From: a bacterium
Lineage (GTDB): Bacteria; SM23-31; JAUVVT01
Reading direction: 5' to 3'
Length of the DNA stretch: 23,597 nucleotides
Assembly: GCA_030616165.1 (NCBI GenBank)
Contig: JAUWXV010000030.1
Span: 1-23,597, forward strand
Position 1 is the first letter of the stretch; every line of letters starts with the position of its first letter. This document shows, one piece after another, positions 15,203 through 23,597 of this stretch. The translations under genes and the position numbers were made by a program. The notes below the pieces were generated by a model, which was not told the origin of the DNA, ran no database searches, and saw only the letters and a list, made by a program, of their open reading frames with translations.

Positions 15203-15214
15203 TAAATACCAAAA

Positions 15215-15304
15215 GCGGGTGAAACTCAGTCGGTAGAGTGCAAGCTTCCCAAGGCATATAAATTGAGTGTTTTTAAACACTCAATAAAAAAATAAATACC
15301 AAAA
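15215..15304 (+). repeat. tRNA-Gly 5'-half pseudogene, tandem copy 1
   Basis: Bases 15215-15253 match the intact tRNA-Gly from the acceptor 5' strand through the CCC anticodon loop, with one change in the acceptor region. The 3' half is absent. In its place is a spacer containing a perfect 11-bp hairpin (15262-15285, TT loop) and an A-rich tail. The unit is about 90 bases and repeats at 15305. It cannot form a tRNA. Confidence 0.8.
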
Positions 15305-15393
15305 GCGGGTGTAACTCAGTTGGTAGAGTGCAAGCTTCCCAAGCATATAAATTGAGTGTTTTTAAACACTCAATAAAAAAATAAATACCAAAA
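15305..15393 (+). repeat. tRNA-Gly 5'-half pseudogene, tandem copy 2
   Basis: Second unit, 89 bases, nearly identical to copy 1. The tRNA part (15305-15343) ends just past the anticodon loop. The same 11-bp hairpin lies at 15351-15374. It runs directly into the intact tRNA-Gly. Confidence 0.8.
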
Positions 15394-15466
15394 GCGGGTG
15401 TAACTCAGTCGGTAGAGTGCAAGCTTCCCAAGCTTGATGTCGCGGGTCCGAGCCCCGTCACCCGCT
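15394..15466 (+). tRNA. tRNA-Gly (anticodon CCC)
   Basis: 73 bases forming a full cloverleaf. The acceptor GCGGGTG pairs with CACCCGC. The anticodon stem CAAGC/GCTTG encloses TTCCCAA, giving CCC. The T-stem GCGGG/CCCGT pairs with one G-T. CCA is not encoded. One oddity: the T-loop reads TCCGAGC, so position 55, normally the pseudouridine U, is C. Function is still likely. Confidence 0.85.
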
Positions 15467-16224: not shown

Positions 16225-16252
16225 TTGACAATAAAAAAATACTTTCTATATT
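16225..16252 (+). promoter_or_regulatory. Promoter of the HTH-receiver/actin gene cluster
   Basis: TTGACA (16225-16230), 16 bases, TATATT (16247-16252). Hexamers and spacing are identical to the tRNA array promoter. Predicted transcription start is near 16259, inside the tandem repeats, giving a leader of about 90 bases. Confidence 0.7.
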
Positions 16253-16305
16253 TAGAACAGATAGAACAAATAAAACAATTGAAACAATTGAAACAGTTAG
16301 AATAA
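16252..16305 (+). repeat. Six tandem 9-bp repeats at the transcription start
   Basis: Six head-to-tail imperfect copies of a 9-mer with consensus WTRRAAYAR (for example TTGAAACAA) with no gaps. They begin at the -10 box and run into the leader. They are candidates for an operator array for the HTH-receiver protein encoded just downstream, or for an unstructured leader RNA. Confidence 0.65.
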
Positions 16306-16349
16306 TATTAAAATTACTTCTTGAAAATTATTTTTGTGAGAAATTATAA

Positions 16350-16916
16350 ATGTTAAAAGATATTTTTACTACGACAGAGGTTGCCAATATTTGTAGAGTC
16401 TCCCGAATGACAGTAAATCGATGGCTTAAAGAGGGTGATTTAATGGGTTATAAATCTACTCCCAAATCCAATTGGAGGATTACTAAAAAAGACCTTAAAA
16501 AATTTATGCAATTTAATAATATTCCAATGAATTTGTTAAAAACCGATAAATTAAAAATCCTAATAGTAGATGATGAGATAGATATAACTTCTTTTATTTC
16601 AGAAGTTTTAGAAGAAGAAAGAAATTTAGAAACCGATACAGCCAATTCAGGATTTAAAGCAGGAGTAAAATTAACAGAATTTAGACCCGATATGGTAATA
16701 CTTGATATAGTCTTAGGTGATATGGACGGTAGAGAATTTTTTGAGCATATTAGAGAAAATCCCGAATTTAATGATATAAAGGTTATCGGAATTTCAGGGC
16801 AAATTGATCCTTCTGAAGAACAATCATTACTTGACCAAGGATTTAGTGCTTTTATAAGAAAGCCCTTTATGATAAAAATGCTTAAAGAAAAAATTTTTGA
16901 GGTGTTAGAGAAATAA
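16350..16916 (+). CDS. Excisionase-type HTH fused to a C-terminal receiver domain
   Basis: Predicted DNA-binding response regulator of 188 residues with reversed architecture. The N-terminal MerR/excisionase-like helix-turn-helix spans about 5-53 (TTTEVANICRVSRMTVNRWL, then NWRITKKDL). The receiver domain (about 68-186) keeps all key residues: D74-D75, phospho-acceptor D119 in ILDIVLGDMDG, S149 and K171 in RKPF. Most response regulators have the receiver first. The ribosome-binding site is weak (GTGAG). It is the first gene after the promoter and 9-bp repeats, so autoregulation is plausible. No histidine kinase is in the window, so its phospho-donor is unknown. Confidence 0.85.
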   Translation: MLKDIFTTTEVANICRVSRMTVNRWLKEGDLMGYKSTPKSNWRITKKDLKKFMQFNNIPMNLLKTDKLKILIVDDEIDITSFISEVLEEERNLETDTANSGFKAGVKLTEFRPDMVILDIVLGDMDGREFFEHIRENPEFNDIKVIGISGQIDPSEEQSLLDQGFSAFIRKPFMIKMLKEKIFEVLEK

Positions 16917-16955
16917 TATTACAATTTGCAAGGGATTACTTTAATAAAAAGGTTG

Positions 16956-17837
16956 ATGTTATTTATGATGAAACTTAAGTGGGAATTTAAAATAATTTTA
17001 TATTCTTTGTTATTATTTAGTGTTTTACTCACAAAAGAATATGCTGCTGTTCTTGTAAATCCTTTTTTACAGTCTAAACAGAAAAGATTGTATATGGTAA
17101 GAAGGGGAAATTTAAGGGAAAGTAATAATATTAATAGTTCTATTATTACTATGCTGGATAGCGGCACAGTGGTGGTGGCAATTGAAAATGATGAGGTTGA
17201 CAACTGGTTTCATGTATCATTGGAAGATGGAACAATAGGATGGATATATTACTACCTTTTAAGCTCATATGAGGATGATTATCAGGAAAAAGGTGGATTA
17301 GAAGAAATGGTTGTGAAGGTTGACGATGAGTCGGAAATGAAATCAGAGGAAGTAAAAAAAGAAGATTATAAAGTGGAATCGGAAGAAAATGCAAGTTTAC
17401 AGTTAGATAGAAAACCTCTGTCTGAGAGTGTTCCCCAAATAATTGAAAATCCAGTAAATAAATATTTATTGGTTTTAATTGCATTTTTGTTGCTAACGAA
17501 CGTAAGTTCGGTTTTGTTGTTCTATAAGTCCAATAAAAAGTTACGAAGTATTTTAATAAGAAGTAAAGGAATAGAATTAGAGAATTATAAGAAGGAAAAT
17601 GAAAAATTAAATAAGAAAGTCTCCTTTCTTGAGAAAAAAATAAGTCAACTGGAAAAAGAGATAGAAGAAGGTATTCAGGTTGTGGAAAGTGAGGAATCTG
17701 AGGTTGAAACATTTGATTCAGAATCAAAAATTTCTGACCAGGAAGAAGAATTAGATAGAGAAATCGATAGTCCACTGAATTTATATAAAATTTATATGCA
17801 TCAGTTTGTCAAAAAAATAAGGGAGAGTTATTCTTGA
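16956..17837 (+). CDS. Membrane protein with periplasmic SH3 domain and cytoplasmic coiled coil
   Basis: About 293 residues from the ATG at 16956. ATGs at 16965 and 16968 are also possible, since AAAAGG sits 12 bases before 16965. An N-terminal hydrophobic segment (about 8-26) is followed by a bacterial SH3 domain (about 47-102, NLRESNN ... GWIYYYLL) and an acidic Lys/Glu-rich linker. A second membrane helix follows at about 168-190, then a coiled coil (about 203-240) and an acidic tail. If the first segment is an anchor or cleaved signal, the SH3 domain is periplasmic and the coiled coil cytoplasmic, so the protein could tie the cell wall to the cytoskeletal proteins encoded downstream. Family not otherwise recognised. 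Confidence 0.7.
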   Translation: MLFMMKLKWEFKIILYSLLLFSVLLTKEYAAVLVNPFLQSKQKRLYMVRRGNLRESNNINSSIITMLDSGTVVVAIENDEVDNWFHVSLEDGTIGWIYYYLLSSYEDDYQEKGGLEEMVVKVDDESEMKSEEVKKEDYKVESEENASLQLDRKPLSESVPQIIENPVNKYLLVLIAFLLLTNVSSVLLFYKSNKKLRSILIRSKGIELENYKKENEKLNKKVSFLEKKISQLEKEIEEGIQVVESEESEVETFDSESKISDQEEELDREIDSPLNLYKIYMHQFVKKIRESYS

Positions 17838-18016
17838 GAAATTATAGATAATTTTTAAATACTTATTGATTTTTTTTTATTTTTTTTTTATTATATTTAT
17901 ATAAAAAGTTGAAGTTTTATTTTTAATTTTTAGAAATATTTTTCAAATACAAGTTATAACATTAGAATTATTAATTAGTTACTATCCCTCCCACAAAGTG
18001 TTATAAGTAAAGTATT

Positions 18017-18052
18017 TGACATTTGTCATTTATCCTTAGACCATTATATATT
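18017..18052 (+). promoter_or_regulatory. Promoter candidate with overlapping palindrome
   Basis: TTGTCA (18023-18028), 18 bases, TATATT (18047-18052), about 45 bases before the ATG at 18099. A palindrome TGACA-TT-TGTCA (18017-18028) covers the -35, as an operator would. The preceding 261-base gap makes an internal promoter reasonable. Confidence 0.45.
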
Positions 18053-18098
18053 TAGTCTGTTATATAAATGTGTTAATATATCTTAAAGGTAAACAATT

Positions 18099-18806
18099 AT
18101 GGGACTCAGAGAATTAAAAAATCAGATATTATATGAGATAAAAAAAATGGAAGAATTTCCCTCTGAAATTCAGGAAATTGAACCTTCTGAAACTATTGAT
18201 GCAAAATTAGAAAAGGATACACCTGGGATTTTCGAACCTGTTCAGAAAATCGAATCAGCAAGAGATGCAAAACAGGAAATTATACAACCGGAAACTATTA
18301 AAACAAAATTAGAAAAAAGTGAGCCAGAAAGTTTAGAGGCGGATAAGAAAATTAAATTAGCAAGGGATGTAAAACAGGTTTTAAAGGATATCATCCATCA
18401 TTTGGAACCGGAATATTTACCACAAAAATCTTATTATCCCTTAAAAGATGCTTCAGGGCTTTTTAATAAATTTGATATAAAAAGGGTTTCAGGAAAATCT
18501 GGAACAAAATTTTATAAAGAATATGATATCCCCACTGGTTTAAAGTCAAGGTTTGGTATATTTAAGAAATATTCTGAAGAAGATAAACCAAAAGAAGGTT
18601 TTGTTTTTCTGCCGGAAGTAGAGAAGCCCTTGGAGAGTGTGATTAAAAAAGATGTTTTTACCATAAAAGGCATGCATGAACGTGTAAAAAAGGAGAATGA
18701 GGTAAAGGAAGATGTTAATAGCCAAAACAAAGGTAGAGGCGCGATTATTGATATGAAAAAAGACAGGAAAATAACTGAAAAAGGAGAAAGTAAAGATAAT
18801 AGTTAA
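18099..18806 (+). CDS. Hypothetical charged protein with internal duplication
   Basis: 235 residues, not recognised. No signal peptide or membrane helix. A 33-residue segment is repeated at 29-61 and 63-95 (ETIDAKLEK...ARDAKQE against ETIKTKLEK...ARDVKQV), offset by 34. A middle region (about 96-180) has more aromatic residues and may fold (HHLEPEYLPQKSYYPLKD, RFGIFKKY). The tail is Lys/Glu-rich and probably disordered. AAAGGT lies 10 bases before the ATG. Position between the SH3 protein and the actin suggests an adaptor or linker, which is inference. Confidence 0.7.
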   Translation: MGLRELKNQILYEIKKMEEFPSEIQEIEPSETIDAKLEKDTPGIFEPVQKIESARDAKQEIIQPETIKTKLEKSEPESLEADKKIKLARDVKQVLKDIIHHLEPEYLPQKSYYPLKDASGLFNKFDIKRVSGKSGTKFYKEYDIPTGLKSRFGIFKKYSEEDKPKEGFVFLPEVEKPLESVIKKDVFTIKGMHERVKKENEVKEDVNSQNKGRGAIIDMKKDRKITEKGESKDNS

Positions 18807-18857
18807 AGTCAAGCGGATGAGAAAGAAAATGCCCTTTAAAAAATGTAATATAATTAT

Positions 18858-19049
18858 ATGAAATTTATAGAAAAACTGGGGATTAAAAATTTAGGTGCAC
18901 ATAAGTCTTTTACATCTGTTTATTCTTACAGGGAATGGACTGATATGCATAATATTAATTGGGAAAGAAAAATAACGGACATCGATTCGCTTTTGAAAGA
19001 AGCCAAACATTTATTGGAAAAGTTACTTAATGTTTATGATAATTCTTAA
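18858..19049 (+). CDS. Small hypothetical protein (63 aa)
   Basis: 63 residues, not recognised. The N-terminal third is basic/aromatic, with WTDMHNINWERK in the middle. The C-terminal third is a likely amphipathic helix (DIDSLLKEAKHLLEKLLNVY). No clear ribosome-binding site is visible. A 14-codon frame at 18817-18861 overlaps its start (ATGA) and could couple translation. The stop is two bases from the next start, which supports a real gene in an operon. Confidence 0.5.
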   Translation: MKFIEKLGIKNLGAHKSFTSVYSYREWTDMHNINWERKITDIDSLLKEAKHLLEKLLNVYDNS

Positions 19050-19051
19050 AT

Positions 19052-19303
19052 ATGGATAAGTTCGCCTTTAAAAATGATAACTCGGGAGAAAATGTTAGAA
19101 AAACTTTGAAAACGCTTGATTTATTAGAAAAAAAAATTGGTTCTTTACTCAATAAATTAAGGAAGTGTGAAATTGAAAATAGGGAAATGAAATCAGAAAT
19201 TGATAATTTACGTAAAGAAAACTCAATTCTACGAGATAACACCAGATACAGTTCAAAATTAATAGAGGAACTTTTAAATAAGTTTGATGAATTGGGGATT
19301 TAG
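19052..19303 (+). CDS. Small coiled-coil protein, ZapB-like
   Basis: 83 residues, mostly one long heptad-patterned helix (about 18-60: LDLLEKKIGSLLNKL, then ENREMKSEIDNLRKENSIL) and a short C-terminal helix ending LIEELLNKFDEL. This layout resembles ZapB-type division-associated coiled coils, though sequence identity cannot be judged here. It starts two bases after the 63-residue gene and precedes the actin gene by 41 bases. A filament-associated accessory role is plausible. Confidence 0.6.
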   Translation: MDKFAFKNDNSGENVRKTLKTLDLLEKKIGSLLNKLRKCEIENREMKSEIDNLRKENSILRDNTRYSSKLIEELLNKFDELGI

Positions 19304-19344
19304 TTGAATGTAATTTAAAATTATAAAATTTATCGGAGGTATGT

Positions 19345-20421
19345 ATGAATGCAGAAAAGAATGTCAATATTTTAGAGACAAAAAAAGAATCATCAAATAT
19401 TCTTTATTTTGGTCTTGATTTGGGCACTTTTCAGAGTGCATTAGCAGCAAGTTCAGGGTTAAGAGTAAATGTTGGAAGTGTCGTAGGTTGGCCCAAGGAT
19501 TTTATTTCTTACAAACTTCTTAATAAACAGATAGTGTTTGGTGAGGAATGTTTAAAAAATCGTCCATCCTTAGATATAGTTTACCCGCTGGAAAAAGGGG
19601 TTGTAAAATATAGGAATACAGATTTTGCTGAAAAACGAGAAGAAGAAAGAGTGACATCTGCGGCTGAAGAACTTATAAGACATCTTTTAAGTTTAGCGGA
19701 AGCGAGGGAAGGTCAGAAAATATATGCTGTTGTCGGTTCTCCTGCAAAGGCGAGTATGGAAGATAAACAGGCGATTATCAGTGCTTCTGAGGGATTAGTC
19801 GATTCTATTTTGGTTGTTTCGGAACCCTTTTTGGTAGCCTATGGTCTCGGGATATATGGTTTTGCAATCATTGTTGATATTGGAGCCGGAACACTTGATA
19901 TATGCAGGATGCATGGAACAATACCTGATGAAGAAGACCAGAGAACCTTGTATACTGCAGGAAATGAAATAGACAAAAAGTTATACGAATTAATGAAAGA
20001 GAAGGTTTCTGGCATTCAACTTACCCCAAGTTTATCGCGAAAGATTAAGGAGGAGTATGGATTTGTGGGAGAAGGTCAGGAGACGGTGAATGTTGATTTT
20101 TATGTGGATGGGAGATTGGAAACAATTGATATTGCAAATGAATTAAAGGAGGCATGTTCTATTATTATTCCTGAAATTTGCGATAATATCAGAGAATTAG
20201 TTGTAAGTTTTGACCCTGAATATATGGGTGAACTGACAAAAAATATTATTCTTGCCGGTGGTTGCAGTCAGATAAAAGGATTGGCTCATGAGATTGAAAC
20301 CAACCTTGCTGATTTGGGTTCTGTGAGAATCAATGTGATTGATGACCCGATTTTTGCCGGTGCTGTTGGGGGTCTTGTGTTAGCGCAGGAGATGCCTCTT
20401 GAAGAATGGGAACAAGTATGA
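19345..20421 (+). CDS. mamK-like: MamK-like bacterial actin
   Basis: Actin-family ATPase of 358 residues expected to form cytoplasmic filaments. Phosphate 1 motif FGLDLGTFQSA (22-32), phosphate 2 VDIGAGTLDICRMHG (177-191) and adenosine motif ILAGGCSQIKGL (302-313) are all present. Many stretches match MamK rather than MreB or ParM as I recall them: VGWPKDFISYKLL, GEECLKNR, PLEKGVVK, CRMHGTIPDEEDQ, TAGNEIDK, EEYGFV, and the C-terminal PIFAGAVGGL followed by EMPLEEWE. Residues E160 and D178 keep the spacing of the MamK catalytic pair (E143/D161). CGGAGGT lies 4 bases before the ATG. No other magnetosome gene is in the window, so a non-magnetosome role such as cargo alignment is possible. Confidence 0.88.
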   Translation: MNAEKNVNILETKKESSNILYFGLDLGTFQSALAASSGLRVNVGSVVGWPKDFISYKLLNKQIVFGEECLKNRPSLDIVYPLEKGVVKYRNTDFAEKREEERVTSAAEELIRHLLSLAEAREGQKIYAVVGSPAKASMEDKQAIISASEGLVDSILVVSEPFLVAYGLGIYGFAIIVDIGAGTLDICRMHGTIPDEEDQRTLYTAGNEIDKKLYELMKEKVSGIQLTPSLSRKIKEEYGFVGEGQETVNVDFYVDGRLETIDIANELKEACSIIIPEICDNIRELVVSFDPEYMGELTKNIILAGGCSQIKGLAHEIETNLADLGSVRINVIDDPIFAGAVGGLVLAQEMPLEEWEQV

Positions 20422-20458
20422 AAGTATAAAAAATTTCTAATATAAGTTAAGGTGTATT

Positions 20459-21073
20459 ATGTGTAAAGAAATACCAATAAATGAAATTATCGATGACATT
20501 TCTCTTATTAGAAAAGAGAAATTTGATGATGACCTTGATTATTTAGAACAATCTATAATAAATTATGGATTATTATGTCCGATTATTGTGAGAGAAGTCC
20601 CGAACGGTTATCAGTTAGTTTCAGGGAGGAGAAGATTAATAGCGTGCAAAAGGCTTGGTTATAAAACTATTCCTGCCATAGTAAAGGAAGTAACATCTGA
20701 TGAAGCAATTGAAATTGCTTTTCAGGAAAATGTACAGAGGATTCCCTTTAGTTCCATAGAAGAAGCAGAAATTATTGATAAAATACGTATTGAGAAAAAG
20801 ATGATTGATAAAGATTTATGTGAGGCTCTGGGCTTATCCCTAAATGAAGTTAATCTTGGAAAAAGGCTGAATGATTTACCGAATAACGTAAAACAGGCTG
20901 TTTCAGAGGGTAAATTAACTGAACGTCAGGCTTTATCTCTCACACGTATTAATGATAAAGAGATTCAGTTGAAAGTTTTCAATAAATTAATTTCCAATTA
21001 TTATTCTGCTGGTGAAACTGAGGATTTGGTGTCAGAATTGTTGGAAGAAAATATTAAAAGTCAAGTGTATTAA
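20459..21073 (+). CDS. Short ParB/Spo0J-type protein
   Basis: 204 residues with the ParB N-terminal (CTPase-type) fold. The nucleotide-motif region reads SGRRRLIACKRLG (55-67; classic proteins have GERR) and ENVQR (90-94), followed by FSSIEEAE. A helix-turn-helix-like region covers about 115-145, then LPNNVKQAVSEGKLTERQALSL as in Spo0J. The lysine-rich C-terminal dimerisation domain of chromosomal ParB is not evident, and the protein is well short of the usual 280 or so. AAGGTG lies before the ATG. It sits between an actin and a ParA, so it may be a cargo or DNA adaptor for ParA rather than the chromosome ParB. I found no classical parS in the window. Confidence 0.85.
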   Translation: MCKEIPINEIIDDISLIRKEKFDDDLDYLEQSIINYGLLCPIIVREVPNGYQLVSGRRRLIACKRLGYKTIPAIVKEVTSDEAIEIAFQENVQRIPFSSIEEAEIIDKIRIEKKMIDKDLCEALGLSLNEVNLGKRLNDLPNNVKQAVSEGKLTERQALSLTRINDKEIQLKVFNKLISNYYSAGETEDLVSELLEENIKSQVY

Positions 21074-21091
21074 ATTCCGAGGAGGAATGTT

Positions 21092-21730
21092 ATGCAAAGG
21101 AAAAAGAGATTAGGAAATGAGTCTCTTAATTGGATTAAGGATACTAAAGAGTCATCTCCAATGACTTCGGTGTCCAAAAAAGAACTTAAAGGCAAATCTA
21201 AGGCAAAAATGTTAGGAGTATTGAAACAATACGTTTATGAAAAATCAGAAGTAAAAAAGATTAAGCCTTAAAAAGCACTCCCACCAATTCCTGATAAATC
21301 CGCAACTATTGTTAAAAGTAAAAAGAAGTTTCCACCCAGGAAGAAGGAAATTAAAGAAAAAATAGAAGTTTCCAGAAAGGAAAAAGTCGAAGAAAAAAAG
21401 ATAACTGCACCTGAAAAAGTAAAGTTTAGAACAGGCGAGATTATTGAAACGGCAAAGAAAGAGGTTACTAAGGTTGCTGATACAATCACTAAACCTTTTG
21501 GCTCTATTAAAAGGCTGAGTATTAAGAAAGGATTAAATTCGGTTATTTCTGCTTCCACTCATCCAATTAGGACTATTTCTTCAATTGATAGGAAGATTAC
21601 CACGTCTGTGAGAAAGATAAGTCTGTTTGATGATAGGAATCTGATTAATAATCGTATAGTAAAGCCTGTTAAAAATGTGGATGATTCGATAAATCGGGTT
21701 GTAAATAAGTTTTTGGATTCAATTCTCTAA
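21092..21730 (+). pseudogene. Basic protein gene interrupted by an in-frame stop
   Basis: A strong GAGGAGG site precedes the ATG at 21092, and the frame encodes a 59-residue Lys-rich protein ending at TAA (21269-21271). The same frame then stays open for 152 more codons to TAA at 21728-21730, without any credible start codon. The downstream part has a Lys/Glu/Pro-rich linker and a more ordered end (AKKEVTKVADTITKPFGSIK ... VVNKFLDSIL). The simplest reading is one ~212-codon gene with a nonsense change or a sequence error. Stop readthrough is a less likely option. The product is unrecognised; its basic character and place between parB-like and parA genes suggest a DNA- or filament-binding partner. 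Confidence 0.65.
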
Positions 21731-21781
21731 TAATTTAGAATAATTTGTATCGATTAGTTTGTTTCTTAATTAACGTTTATT

Positions 21782-23032
21782 ATGCATACAAGAATAATAG
21801 CCTTGGTTAATCAGAAGGGTGGAGTGGGAAAAACTACAACTGCGGCAAATTTAGGAGCGTGTTTAGCCTCTTTAAAGCAAAAAACCCTTCTTGTTGACCT
21901 TGACCCTCAGTCAAATTTAAGTTTGCACTTTGGTATGAAGGTTCATAAGATAGAAAAATCTATTAATGAGCTGTTGTTGGATGAGAATATAAAATTTAAA
22001 GATGTTGTTGTAAATACTGGAATAGACAATTTAGAACTAATACCAGCCAATATAGAATTATCCAGTGCCGAGATGGAATTAGTAAATGTTGTCGGCAGAG
22101 AAAGAGTCTTAAAAGATGTGCTTGATGACATTTTAAAAAAGAACAAATATGATTTTGTGATAATAGATTGTTCACCTTCATTAGGTTTGTTAACATTGAA
22201 TGCATTAACCACGGCTGAGGAAGTCTTCATTCCTTTACAGGCAGAATATTTTGCTTTGCAGGGATTGGGAAGGCTTTTAAAAACTGTTGAACTGGTCAAA
22301 AATAGATTAAATCCAGAATTAGAGCTAACTGGCATAATTCCATGCATGTTTGATGTGAGGCGAAGCCTTTCATGGGAAGTTTTAGAAAAAGTTAGAAGTT
22401 TTTTTAGAGAAAGTGTATTCAAAACAATTATAAGGGTAAATGTAAATTTGGCAGAAGCTCCGGGTTACGGGCAGTCAATCTTGACTTATGCTCCCGGTTC
22501 ACACGGCGCTAAAGATTATTTGCAACTGGCAAAAGAAGTTATTAGGAAGGGAAAAAGAGATTTAAAAACAAGAGAAAAGACTTCTGCAGAAAAATTAGTT
22601 GAAAGTGATAAGATAAAATTCTTGAATAAAAAAACAAGAATTTTAGTTGTGGATGATGAAGCCGGGATATGCGACCTTCTAAAAGAATGTTTTTCGGAAT
22701 TTACTTCAAACGTATATATTGCAAATGATTTTAAACAGGCTGTAAAGCATCTAAAAAAAGGCTTATTAGATATTCTTATTTTAGATGTTAGCCTCCCGGG
22801 AAAAGATGGTTTTGACTTGGCTGAATGGGTTAAGAAACAAGATTATCTTATGGATTTACCGATTATTATGATAACCGGTGTGAAGAAAGATAGAAATTCT
22901 GTTGTCAGAGCAATGGAAATCGGAATCGATAAATATGTTATAAAACCTTTCAACTTAAAACGATTAATAATTGATGTTAATAATGTCTTGGACCCTACTT
23001 ATAAGAAAAGTAAACTCAAAAAGCCTATGTAA
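21782..23032 (+). CDS. ParA ATPase fused to a C-terminal receiver domain
   Basis: 416 residues. Residues 1-258 are a complete ParA/Soj ATPase: deviant Walker A KGGVGKTT (12-19), VDLDPQ (38-43, Walker A'), IIDCSPS (127-133, Walker B) and the family segment EAPGYGQSILTYAPGSHGA. A Lys-rich linker (about 255-284) leads to a receiver domain (about 286-405) with D291-D292, phospho-acceptor D335 in LILDVSLPGKDG, T365 and K388, so phosphorylation should be possible. ParA proteins are normally about 260 residues and act by ATP-dependent DNA-bound dimers. A receiver tail suggests that phosphorylation gates positioning. No clear ribosome-binding site precedes the ATG. Confidence 0.93.
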   Translation: MHTRIIALVNQKGGVGKTTTAANLGACLASLKQKTLLVDLDPQSNLSLHFGMKVHKIEKSINELLLDENIKFKDVVVNTGIDNLELIPANIELSSAEMELVNVVGRERVLKDVLDDILKKNKYDFVIIDCSPSLGLLTLNALTTAEEVFIPLQAEYFALQGLGRLLKTVELVKNRLNPELELTGIIPCMFDVRRSLSWEVLEKVRSFFRESVFKTIIRVNVNLAEAPGYGQSILTYAPGSHGAKDYLQLAKEVIRKGKRDLKTREKTSAEKLVESDKIKFLNKKTRILVVDDEAGICDLLKECFSEFTSNVYIANDFKQAVKHLKKGLLDILILDVSLPGKDGFDLAEWVKKQDYLMDLPIIMITGVKKDRNSVVRAMEIGIDKYVIKPFNLKRLIIDVNNVLDPTYKKSKLKKPM

Positions 23033-23176
23033 AGAGTTAAAGAAACTAAGGAAAATTATTCAAAAAGAGAAAGTGTGTTTTAAAAATTATAAAAAAGAAA
23101 ATAAATGAATTGAAAAGTGAGAATATAGAATAAAAAGATTAATCTATTAATTAGTTTAAATATATTTAGTAAAGAT

Positions 23177-23566
23177 ATGAAGAAATTAAATTTTTTAGTA
23201 GTAGAAAATTCTTTAACTTCGAGAAAGATAATAGTTAATTGTCTTAAAAAAATGGGTTGTACGTCTATTGTTGAAGCAACCGATGGAAAGGATGCGCTCG
23301 GCAAAATGTATACTGAAAATATAAATTTCATTATAACGGAGTGGATTATGCCAAATATGGATGGTTTGAAATTTGTTAAAGTAGTTAAAGAGGAGATTTC
23401 TTTTAAGGAAATACCAATTCTGATGATCACGTCAAGAGGTGGAAAAGGTGACATTCTTACTGCATTAAAAGCCGGGGTTGATAACTATATCATTAAACCT
23501 TTTACTCCCATGGTTCTTAAAGAAAAAATAAATGCAATTTTAGAAAAAAAGCAACCAGGAAAATGA
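23177..23566 (+). CDS. CheY-like single receiver with Glu at the phosphorylation site
   Basis: 129-residue stand-alone receiver domain, CheY-sized. The acidic pair usually DD reads E10-N11. The phospho-acceptor position reads E55 (ITEWIMPNMDG, where CheY has Asp). T85 and K107 (IIKPF) are kept. Glu at this position cannot take the normal aspartyl phosphate and often mimics the phosphorylated state, so this may be a fixed-state binding protein. It shares direction with ParA-receiver, 144 bases downstream, and its stop overlaps the next start (ATGA). The intervening gap shows no clear terminator. Target unknown. Confidence 0.9.
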   Translation: MKKLNFLVVENSLTSRKIIVNCLKKMGCTSIVEATDGKDALGKMYTENINFIITEWIMPNMDGLKFVKVVKEEISFKEIPILMITSRGGKGDILTALKAGVDNYIIKPFTPMVLKEKINAILEKKQPGK

Positions 23567-23597
23567 TGAGAATAATATTTCAATTTTGTCTAAAGTT
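23563..23597 (+). CDS. Start of a further gene, cut by the window edge
   Basis: ATG at 23563 overlaps the stop of the CheY-like gene by four bases and follows AGGA. The visible codons read MMRIIFQFCLK. Overlap and ribosome-binding site suggest a translationally coupled gene, but too little is present to name it. Confidence 0.35.
   Translation, partial: MMRIIFQFCLK

Follow-up and report, generated by a model that had tools for sequence, protein, structure and literature searches.

A MamK-family actin and a receiver-bearing ParA in one gene cluster of an uncultured SM23-31-related bacterium: a candidate operon for magnetosome positioning

What might be positioned by a gene cluster in which an actin of the magnetosome type lies beside ParA- and ParB-type proteins? 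The question is raised by a stretch of 23,597 nucleotides (the window), which is the entire contig C145 (JAUWXV010000030.1) of a draft genome (G000; 3.74 Mb, 90% complete, 1.6% contaminated) whose lineage relatives include bacterium SM23_31, KSB1 B69T1L10 and PL23a_bin.125. An earlier note on this DNA had proposed an undescribed filament-based positioning system under two-component control. With an actin and a ParA system present, this is still the best functional guess; the cargo is likely the magnetosome and not an unknown body, since the same genome harbors a magnetosome gene cluster. We consider the chances about even that a magnetosome-forming bacterium from an uncultured phylum related to SM23-31 has in this locus its mamK operon for organelle positioning, in which MamK is combined with a receiver-controlled ParA. 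The MamK-ParA cluster probably represents a means of magnetosome placement that has not been described before.

A MamK-family actin in a ten-gene cluster

Open reading frames together with Pfam and NCBIfam matches bore out the co-directional cluster, with every gene that the earlier note had named, the HTH-receiver and the SH3 membrane protein included. Ten genes on the + strand span positions 16350-23566:

16350-16916, + strand: DNA-binding response regulator with HTH_17 and a canonical receiver (Pfam HTH_17, E 1e-10; Response_reg, E 1.5e-20)
16956-17837, + strand: membrane protein with an N-terminal signal or transmembrane segment, SH3_3 (E 3e-8), a second transmembrane segment and a C-terminal coiled coil
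18099-18806, + strand: lineage-specific protein of 235 amino acids (aa) with two internal repeats, opening gene of the putative mamK operon (coding bias)
18858-19049, + strand: lineage-specific protein of 63 aa (open reading frame with coding bias)
19052-19303, + strand: small coiled-coil protein of 83 aa, likely MamK partner (homologues adjoin MamK in three class relatives)
19345-20421, + strand: MamK-family actin (NF040964, structures 5jyg/5ljv, AlphaFold, tree)
20459-21073, + strand: ParB/Noc-type protein (ParB_N and HTH_ParB domain matches)
21092-21730, + strand: strongly basic protein, isoelectric point ~10, frame broken by TAA at 21269-21271 (open reading frames, coding bias)
21782-23032, + strand: ParA-type ATPase with a C-terminal canonical receiver (AAA_31, E 1e-62; Response_reg, E 1e-23)
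23177-23566, + strand: CheY-like protein with a degenerate acceptor site (domain and residue checks)

The 235 aa and 63 aa proteins had no family match in Pfam or NCBIfam. Coding bias is strong and reading frames are intact throughout the cluster, save for the basic gene. Intergenic gaps measure 3-52 bp across 18806-21782, so that 18099-23032 resembles a single transcription unit; the spacing suggests a division into two units, one comprising the HTH-receiver and SH3 genes and the other 18099-23032. The contig ends 31 bp past the CheY-like gene, cutting the cluster at its right end.

The actin is truly a member of the MamK family. It scores 380.9 bits (E 4.6e-114) against the NCBIfam MamK model NF040964, 187.7 bits against BeeR and 57.3 bits against MreB; the MamK score falls just below the curated cut-off of 400 bits, as do those of the actins at loci L027 and L047. 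The closest solved structures are those of MamK (5jyg/5ljv, E ~1e-72), and an AlphaFold model built from 22 sequences (pLDDT 89.2) ranked the MamK filament 5ljv_A first, with a TM score of 0.88 and a root-mean-square deviation of 1.4. In the alignment, the ATPase residues E143 and D161 of AMB-1 MamK are kept as E160 and D178. A maximum-likelihood tree groups the window actin with class relatives (UFBoot/SH-aLRT 100/97) and places this group next to actins of Latescibacterota and Gemmatimonadota (98/95); AMB-1 MamK and a Rhodospirillales MamK flanked by MamM/MamO are sister to that set (90/88; 15 rows together), with BeeR and MreB outside the clade. A clade of the window actin with only the AMB-1 and Rhodospirillales MamK is rejected (p-AU 0.00016), the outcome that vertical descent would give. 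The tree thus puts the protein within the MamK family and not with the plasmid segregation actins, the grouping that the earlier note had said would refute its view. ParM, AlfA and Alp7A were discarded as candidates: there was no plasmid match, an Alp7A-type Pfam model reached only E 0.06, and the tree disagreed. BeeR of Verrucomicrobiota resembles the window actin in being a MamK-related actin, there in non-magnetotactic bacteria (PMC11929497); the window protein differs from it in scoring 188 bits to BeeR and 381 to MamK.

A scan over ~85,000 species genomes yielded 78 actin-family loci. MamK relatives were met in several settings. Marine Group II archaea (Poseidoniales; L050, L054, L085, L092 and others) have a MamK-family actin with 37-40% identity, often located between a large protein (Peptidase_S8 in L085) and an uncharacterised protein of ~400 aa. 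The phage-like contig IMGVR_UViG_3300009370_000045 encodes one as well (L161:7998-9041; 36% identity, NF040964 359 bits), adjoining terminase-like and capsid-like genes. In Acidobacteriota (Thermoanaerobaculales), a MamK-family actin at L042:8943-10031 lies downstream of an N-acetylmuramoyl-L-alanine amidase gene. Finally, MamK paralogues at L027 and L028, which have a 409 aa gene and NfeD-like genes nearby, have Gln in place of the SEPF-motif Glu (AMB-1 E143), a substitution that suggests a second, non-hydrolysing MamK.

Magnetosome genes on two other contigs

The statement that no magnetosome membrane gene is present holds inside the window, and fails for the genome, where a magnetosome cluster is found on contigs C181 (10.75 kb) and C135:

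C181, opening genes: PAS histidine kinase, NtrC-type regulator, receiver protein with a basic tail
C181: NifX-like protein, MamE-like protease (E 4e-83), PDZ protein
C181: NifX plus magnetochrome protein, FmpB-like
C181: MamP match (E 1.6e-83) with three PDZ and three magnetochrome domains
C181: LapA-domain protein of MamL size, then the start of a MamM-like CDF
C135: begins inside a CDF gene at about the position of the C181 break, then a MamB-like CDF (E 4e-78)
C135: MamA (E 5e-50), MamQ (E 5e-32), MamN (E 3.5e-111)
C135: TauE protein matching the C-terminal part of MamO (E 1e-54)
C135: FeoB, DtxR-type regulator

Most mam matches score under the NCBIfam equivalog cut-offs, as expected in a distant phylum. 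The magnetochrome domains on C181 are above their curated cut-off and had no counterpart in four relatives and 14 control genomes. The magnetosome gene combination on these contigs is not in doubt. C181 and C135 seem to meet within one CDF gene, over ~30 similar bases; the gene occupies C135 1-533 and its reading frame is broken near C135:225. In GC content and tetranucleotide signature both contigs agree with the rest of the genome. Two-component proteins are abundant in the window and on C181 alike, and C181 supplies a kinase that the window lacks. We infer that the window is physically linked to these contigs.

These genes bear on the view that the locus is a non-magnetosomal system of cell organisation, built on filaments of a general MamK-family actin, with the magnetosome cluster working independently of it. 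MamK-family actins are indeed common away from magnetosome loci, in Latescibacterota, Gemmatimonadota, Acidobacteriota, Gammaproteobacteria and Poseidoniales. Furthermore, the same-family relative G001 has the HTH-receiver, SH3 and 18099 genes, yet no MamK or magnetochrome gene was found in it. That genome, however, is only 70% complete, and where the mamK operon would be expected to follow, the contig breaks off. The window actin is, moreover, the only MamK found in a genome that has a magnetosome cluster, and mamK belongs to a set of nine genes whose conservation in magnetosome islands has been described (PMC12713370). A non-magnetosomal role was dropped as the leading view because of the magnetochrome domains in the same genome, and we regard it as quite unlikely.

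Comparison with known magnetosome systems brings out both likenesses and differences. The window actin resembles Magnetospirillum MamK (which operates with MamJ/MamY or McaA/McaB) by profile, structure and tree, and its genome has magnetosome genes; the window operon lacks MamJ, MamY and Mca genes and has instead a small coiled-coil protein, ParB, a ParA-receiver and other receivers. Desulfovibrio magneticus RS-1, with its network of Mad coiled-coil proteins and MamK/Mad28 (PMC12748827), is similar in being deep-branching and in associating MamK with coiled-coil proteins, and its FmpB shows the same combination of NifX and magnetochrome as the FmpB-like protein of the window genome (PMC4287615). 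Unlike in RS-1, no second actin was found adjoining the window MamK, which has ParA/ParB and receivers for neighbors.

The Par proteins, the basic protein and the receivers

The ParA-type protein described by the earlier note as fused to a receiver is so organized: AAA_31 covers residues 3-181, with the Walker motifs kept, and Response_reg residues 287-397. TadZ/CpaE proteins also combine a receiver-like domain and a ParA-type ATPase in one chain. Their order is the reverse of that in the window protein, which has the ATPase N-terminal and the canonical receiver C-terminal. Searches of 115 other genomes at E 1e-70 and of plasmid records, of which the best 5000 were considered, turned up no other ParA match with a fused receiver, though weaker fusions could escape these limits. 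McdA/McdB, PpfA and ParC offer a parallel in being second, non-chromosomal ParA systems beside cargo-type genes; these known systems have neither a receiver on their ParA nor an actin partner.

The presence of a ParB-type protein was likewise upheld. It has the HTH domain and the CTP-site motifs, and lacks the N-terminal LGKGL motif and the C-terminal dimerisation domain, both of which the relatives' chromosomal ParBs have. A separate canonical Soj/Spo0J pair is encoded in the same genome, on contig C291. Conceivably, then, MamK and the coiled-coil protein serve the magnetosome, and ParB and the ParA-receiver are a second Par set (for instance, a DNA-segregation pair, nucleoid or regulatory) with nothing but the operon in common with them. 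This would fit with the features retained by ParB, with the 48% identity of the window ParA to its own genome's Soj, and with the absence of ParA/ParB near any other MamK-family locus. It fits less well with the arrangement of the genes, which lie on one strand with a tight spacing of 18-52 bp, with the absence from the window of any match to the canonical parS TGTTTCACGTGAAACA at up to three mismatches, and with a ParB devoid of either end typical of partition ParBs. In addition, the basic protein encoded between ParB and ParA resembles a protein of the magnetosome cluster. On balance, we find a separate Par set unlikely.

This last resemblance is between the basic protein's C-terminal half and the tail of the C181 receiver protein: the alignment scores 86, shuffled sequences average 46, and none of 1000 shuffles came up to the real score. 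A tail shared by the basic protein with a 109 aa protein of C135 is borderline (13/1000 shuffles). The N-terminus of the basic protein, KKRLGNESLNWI, is loosely like the KKHLGKGLRALF start of chromosomal ParBs. The protein is a candidate trigger of ParA, which is no more than a lead. Within its gene, coding bias persists in frame beyond the TAA. One might see in this stop codon, in the broken CDF frame and in the unjoined contigs the marks of a remnant, left by decay or by faulty assembly, in which a magnetosome island is degrading or strains are mixed and the operon has no present function. Against this, such breaks arise in draft metagenome assemblies, every other gene of the cluster has an intact frame and strong coding bias, and the HTH-receiver and SH3 genes are under purifying selection when compared with G001. 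We hold a remnant to be very improbable.

In the HTH-receiver, the comparison with the G001 orthologue gave a dN (nonsynonymous divergence) of 0.11 for the receiver part and 0.47 for the HTH part. Ahead of its gene, 9-bp direct repeats lie between a putative promoter (TTGACA) and the start (window 16253-16300; L132:5326-5344 at the relative's locus); they differ in sequence between the two genomes and may constitute an operator. The CheY-like protein of the earlier note is present, with an altered active site: Glu replaces the acceptor Asp and the acidic pair is Glu-Asn, where both other receivers of the window have canonical residues. No CheW was found in the window genome, so the protein does not belong to a chemotaxis system there. 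A chemosensory cluster with ParA was rejected on both counts. The CheW-rich contig C312 and further ParB-like contigs (G001/G000/G004) were considered as continuations of the cluster and set aside, their gene content being unrelated. Homologues of the SH3 protein in G004 and G005 have only the SH3 domain in common with it and belong to a different histidine-kinase cluster. Farther upstream, at 15203-15433, an 89-bp unit made of the 5′ part of tRNA-Gly and a hairpin-like stretch is repeated 2.6 times ahead of an intact tRNA-Gly gene. An integrative element next to tRNA genes was discounted: no integrase is visible in the window, and the flanks of the copy in G001 are different.

Gene order in relatives and a possible mechanism

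Conservation of the neighborhood, which the earlier note had put forward as a check, is partial. A contig of G001 has, in the same order, the HTH-receiver (65% identity), the SH3 protein (67-68%) and the first 19 aa of the 18099 gene (84%), and stops directly before the mamK operon would be expected to start. Three class relatives (L029, L036, L037) have MamK, then a homologous small coiled-coil gene (71-76 aa), then FeoB; in L029 and L036 a ferritin/rubrerythrin-like gene follows FeoB, an iron context with no magnetochrome gene detected. Among the 78 actin-family loci, the MamK-ParA/ParB pair was found nowhere else.

Several of these observations weigh against a magnetosome-positioning operon. 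The ends of C145 do not overlap with those of C181 or C135, and the contigs stay unjoined. ParA, ParB or receiver genes like those of the window were found near none of the other actins in the flanking DNA covered (0/78 actin-family loci), leaving MamK beside ParA/ParB known in the window only. The class relatives that carry MamK (63-79% complete) have no magnetochrome gene and no MamQ match above cut-off, the MamQ search returning LemA-like matches below it. As these relatives keep MamK and the coiled-coil gene in such a setting, this actin lineage may serve another purpose. The LGKGL motif missing from ParB and the interruption of the basic gene count on the same side.

With a magnetosome-positioning operon as the favored reading, a mechanism can be outlined. 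MamK filaments move and space magnetosomes (PMC5059902), and ParA-type ATPases space cargo over the nucleoid, with a cargo protein triggering ATP hydrolysis (PMC13052382). Here, MamK filaments would carry or space the magnetosomes and the small coiled-coil protein would regulate these filaments. ParA in its ATP state would bind the nucleoid, from which a basic or ParB-type partner, bound to the cargo or to the filament, would release it locally; such release would space or segregate the magnetosome chain or the ends of MamK filaments. The histidine kinase of the magnetosome cluster would phosphorylate the ParA receiver, tuning positioning to conditions, and possibly also the HTH-receiver, which would control expression. 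A possible role for the SH3 protein is to anchor the coil network at the envelope. The role of ParA in magnetosome positioning is, we infer, part of this scheme. Its strongest form, in which an actin filament and a phosphorylation-controlled ParA jointly position magnetosomes, both strategies being encoded in one operon of a candidate phylum with no known magnetotactic bacteria, we put forward as possible but somewhat doubtful.

MamK, ParA and magnetosome islands are all of known kinds; an operon that unites MamK with a ParB and a receiver-bearing ParA was not found in the literature searched. A 2025 review lists MamK and ParA/McdA as separate positioning strategies (PMC13052382), and the MamK mechanism has been called entirely dissimilar to ParA-based segregation (PMC5059902). 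The literature searched likewise gave no report of magnetosome genes in SM23-31 relatives, a lineage to which the present data add a magnetosome gene cluster. The MamK family itself extends well past magnetosome loci, into archaea and a phage. If the proposal is true, the cytoskeletal (MamK) and nucleoid-gradient (ParA/McdA) strategies would be joined in one operon, and the presence of both under receiver control makes it testable whether they act as one machine.

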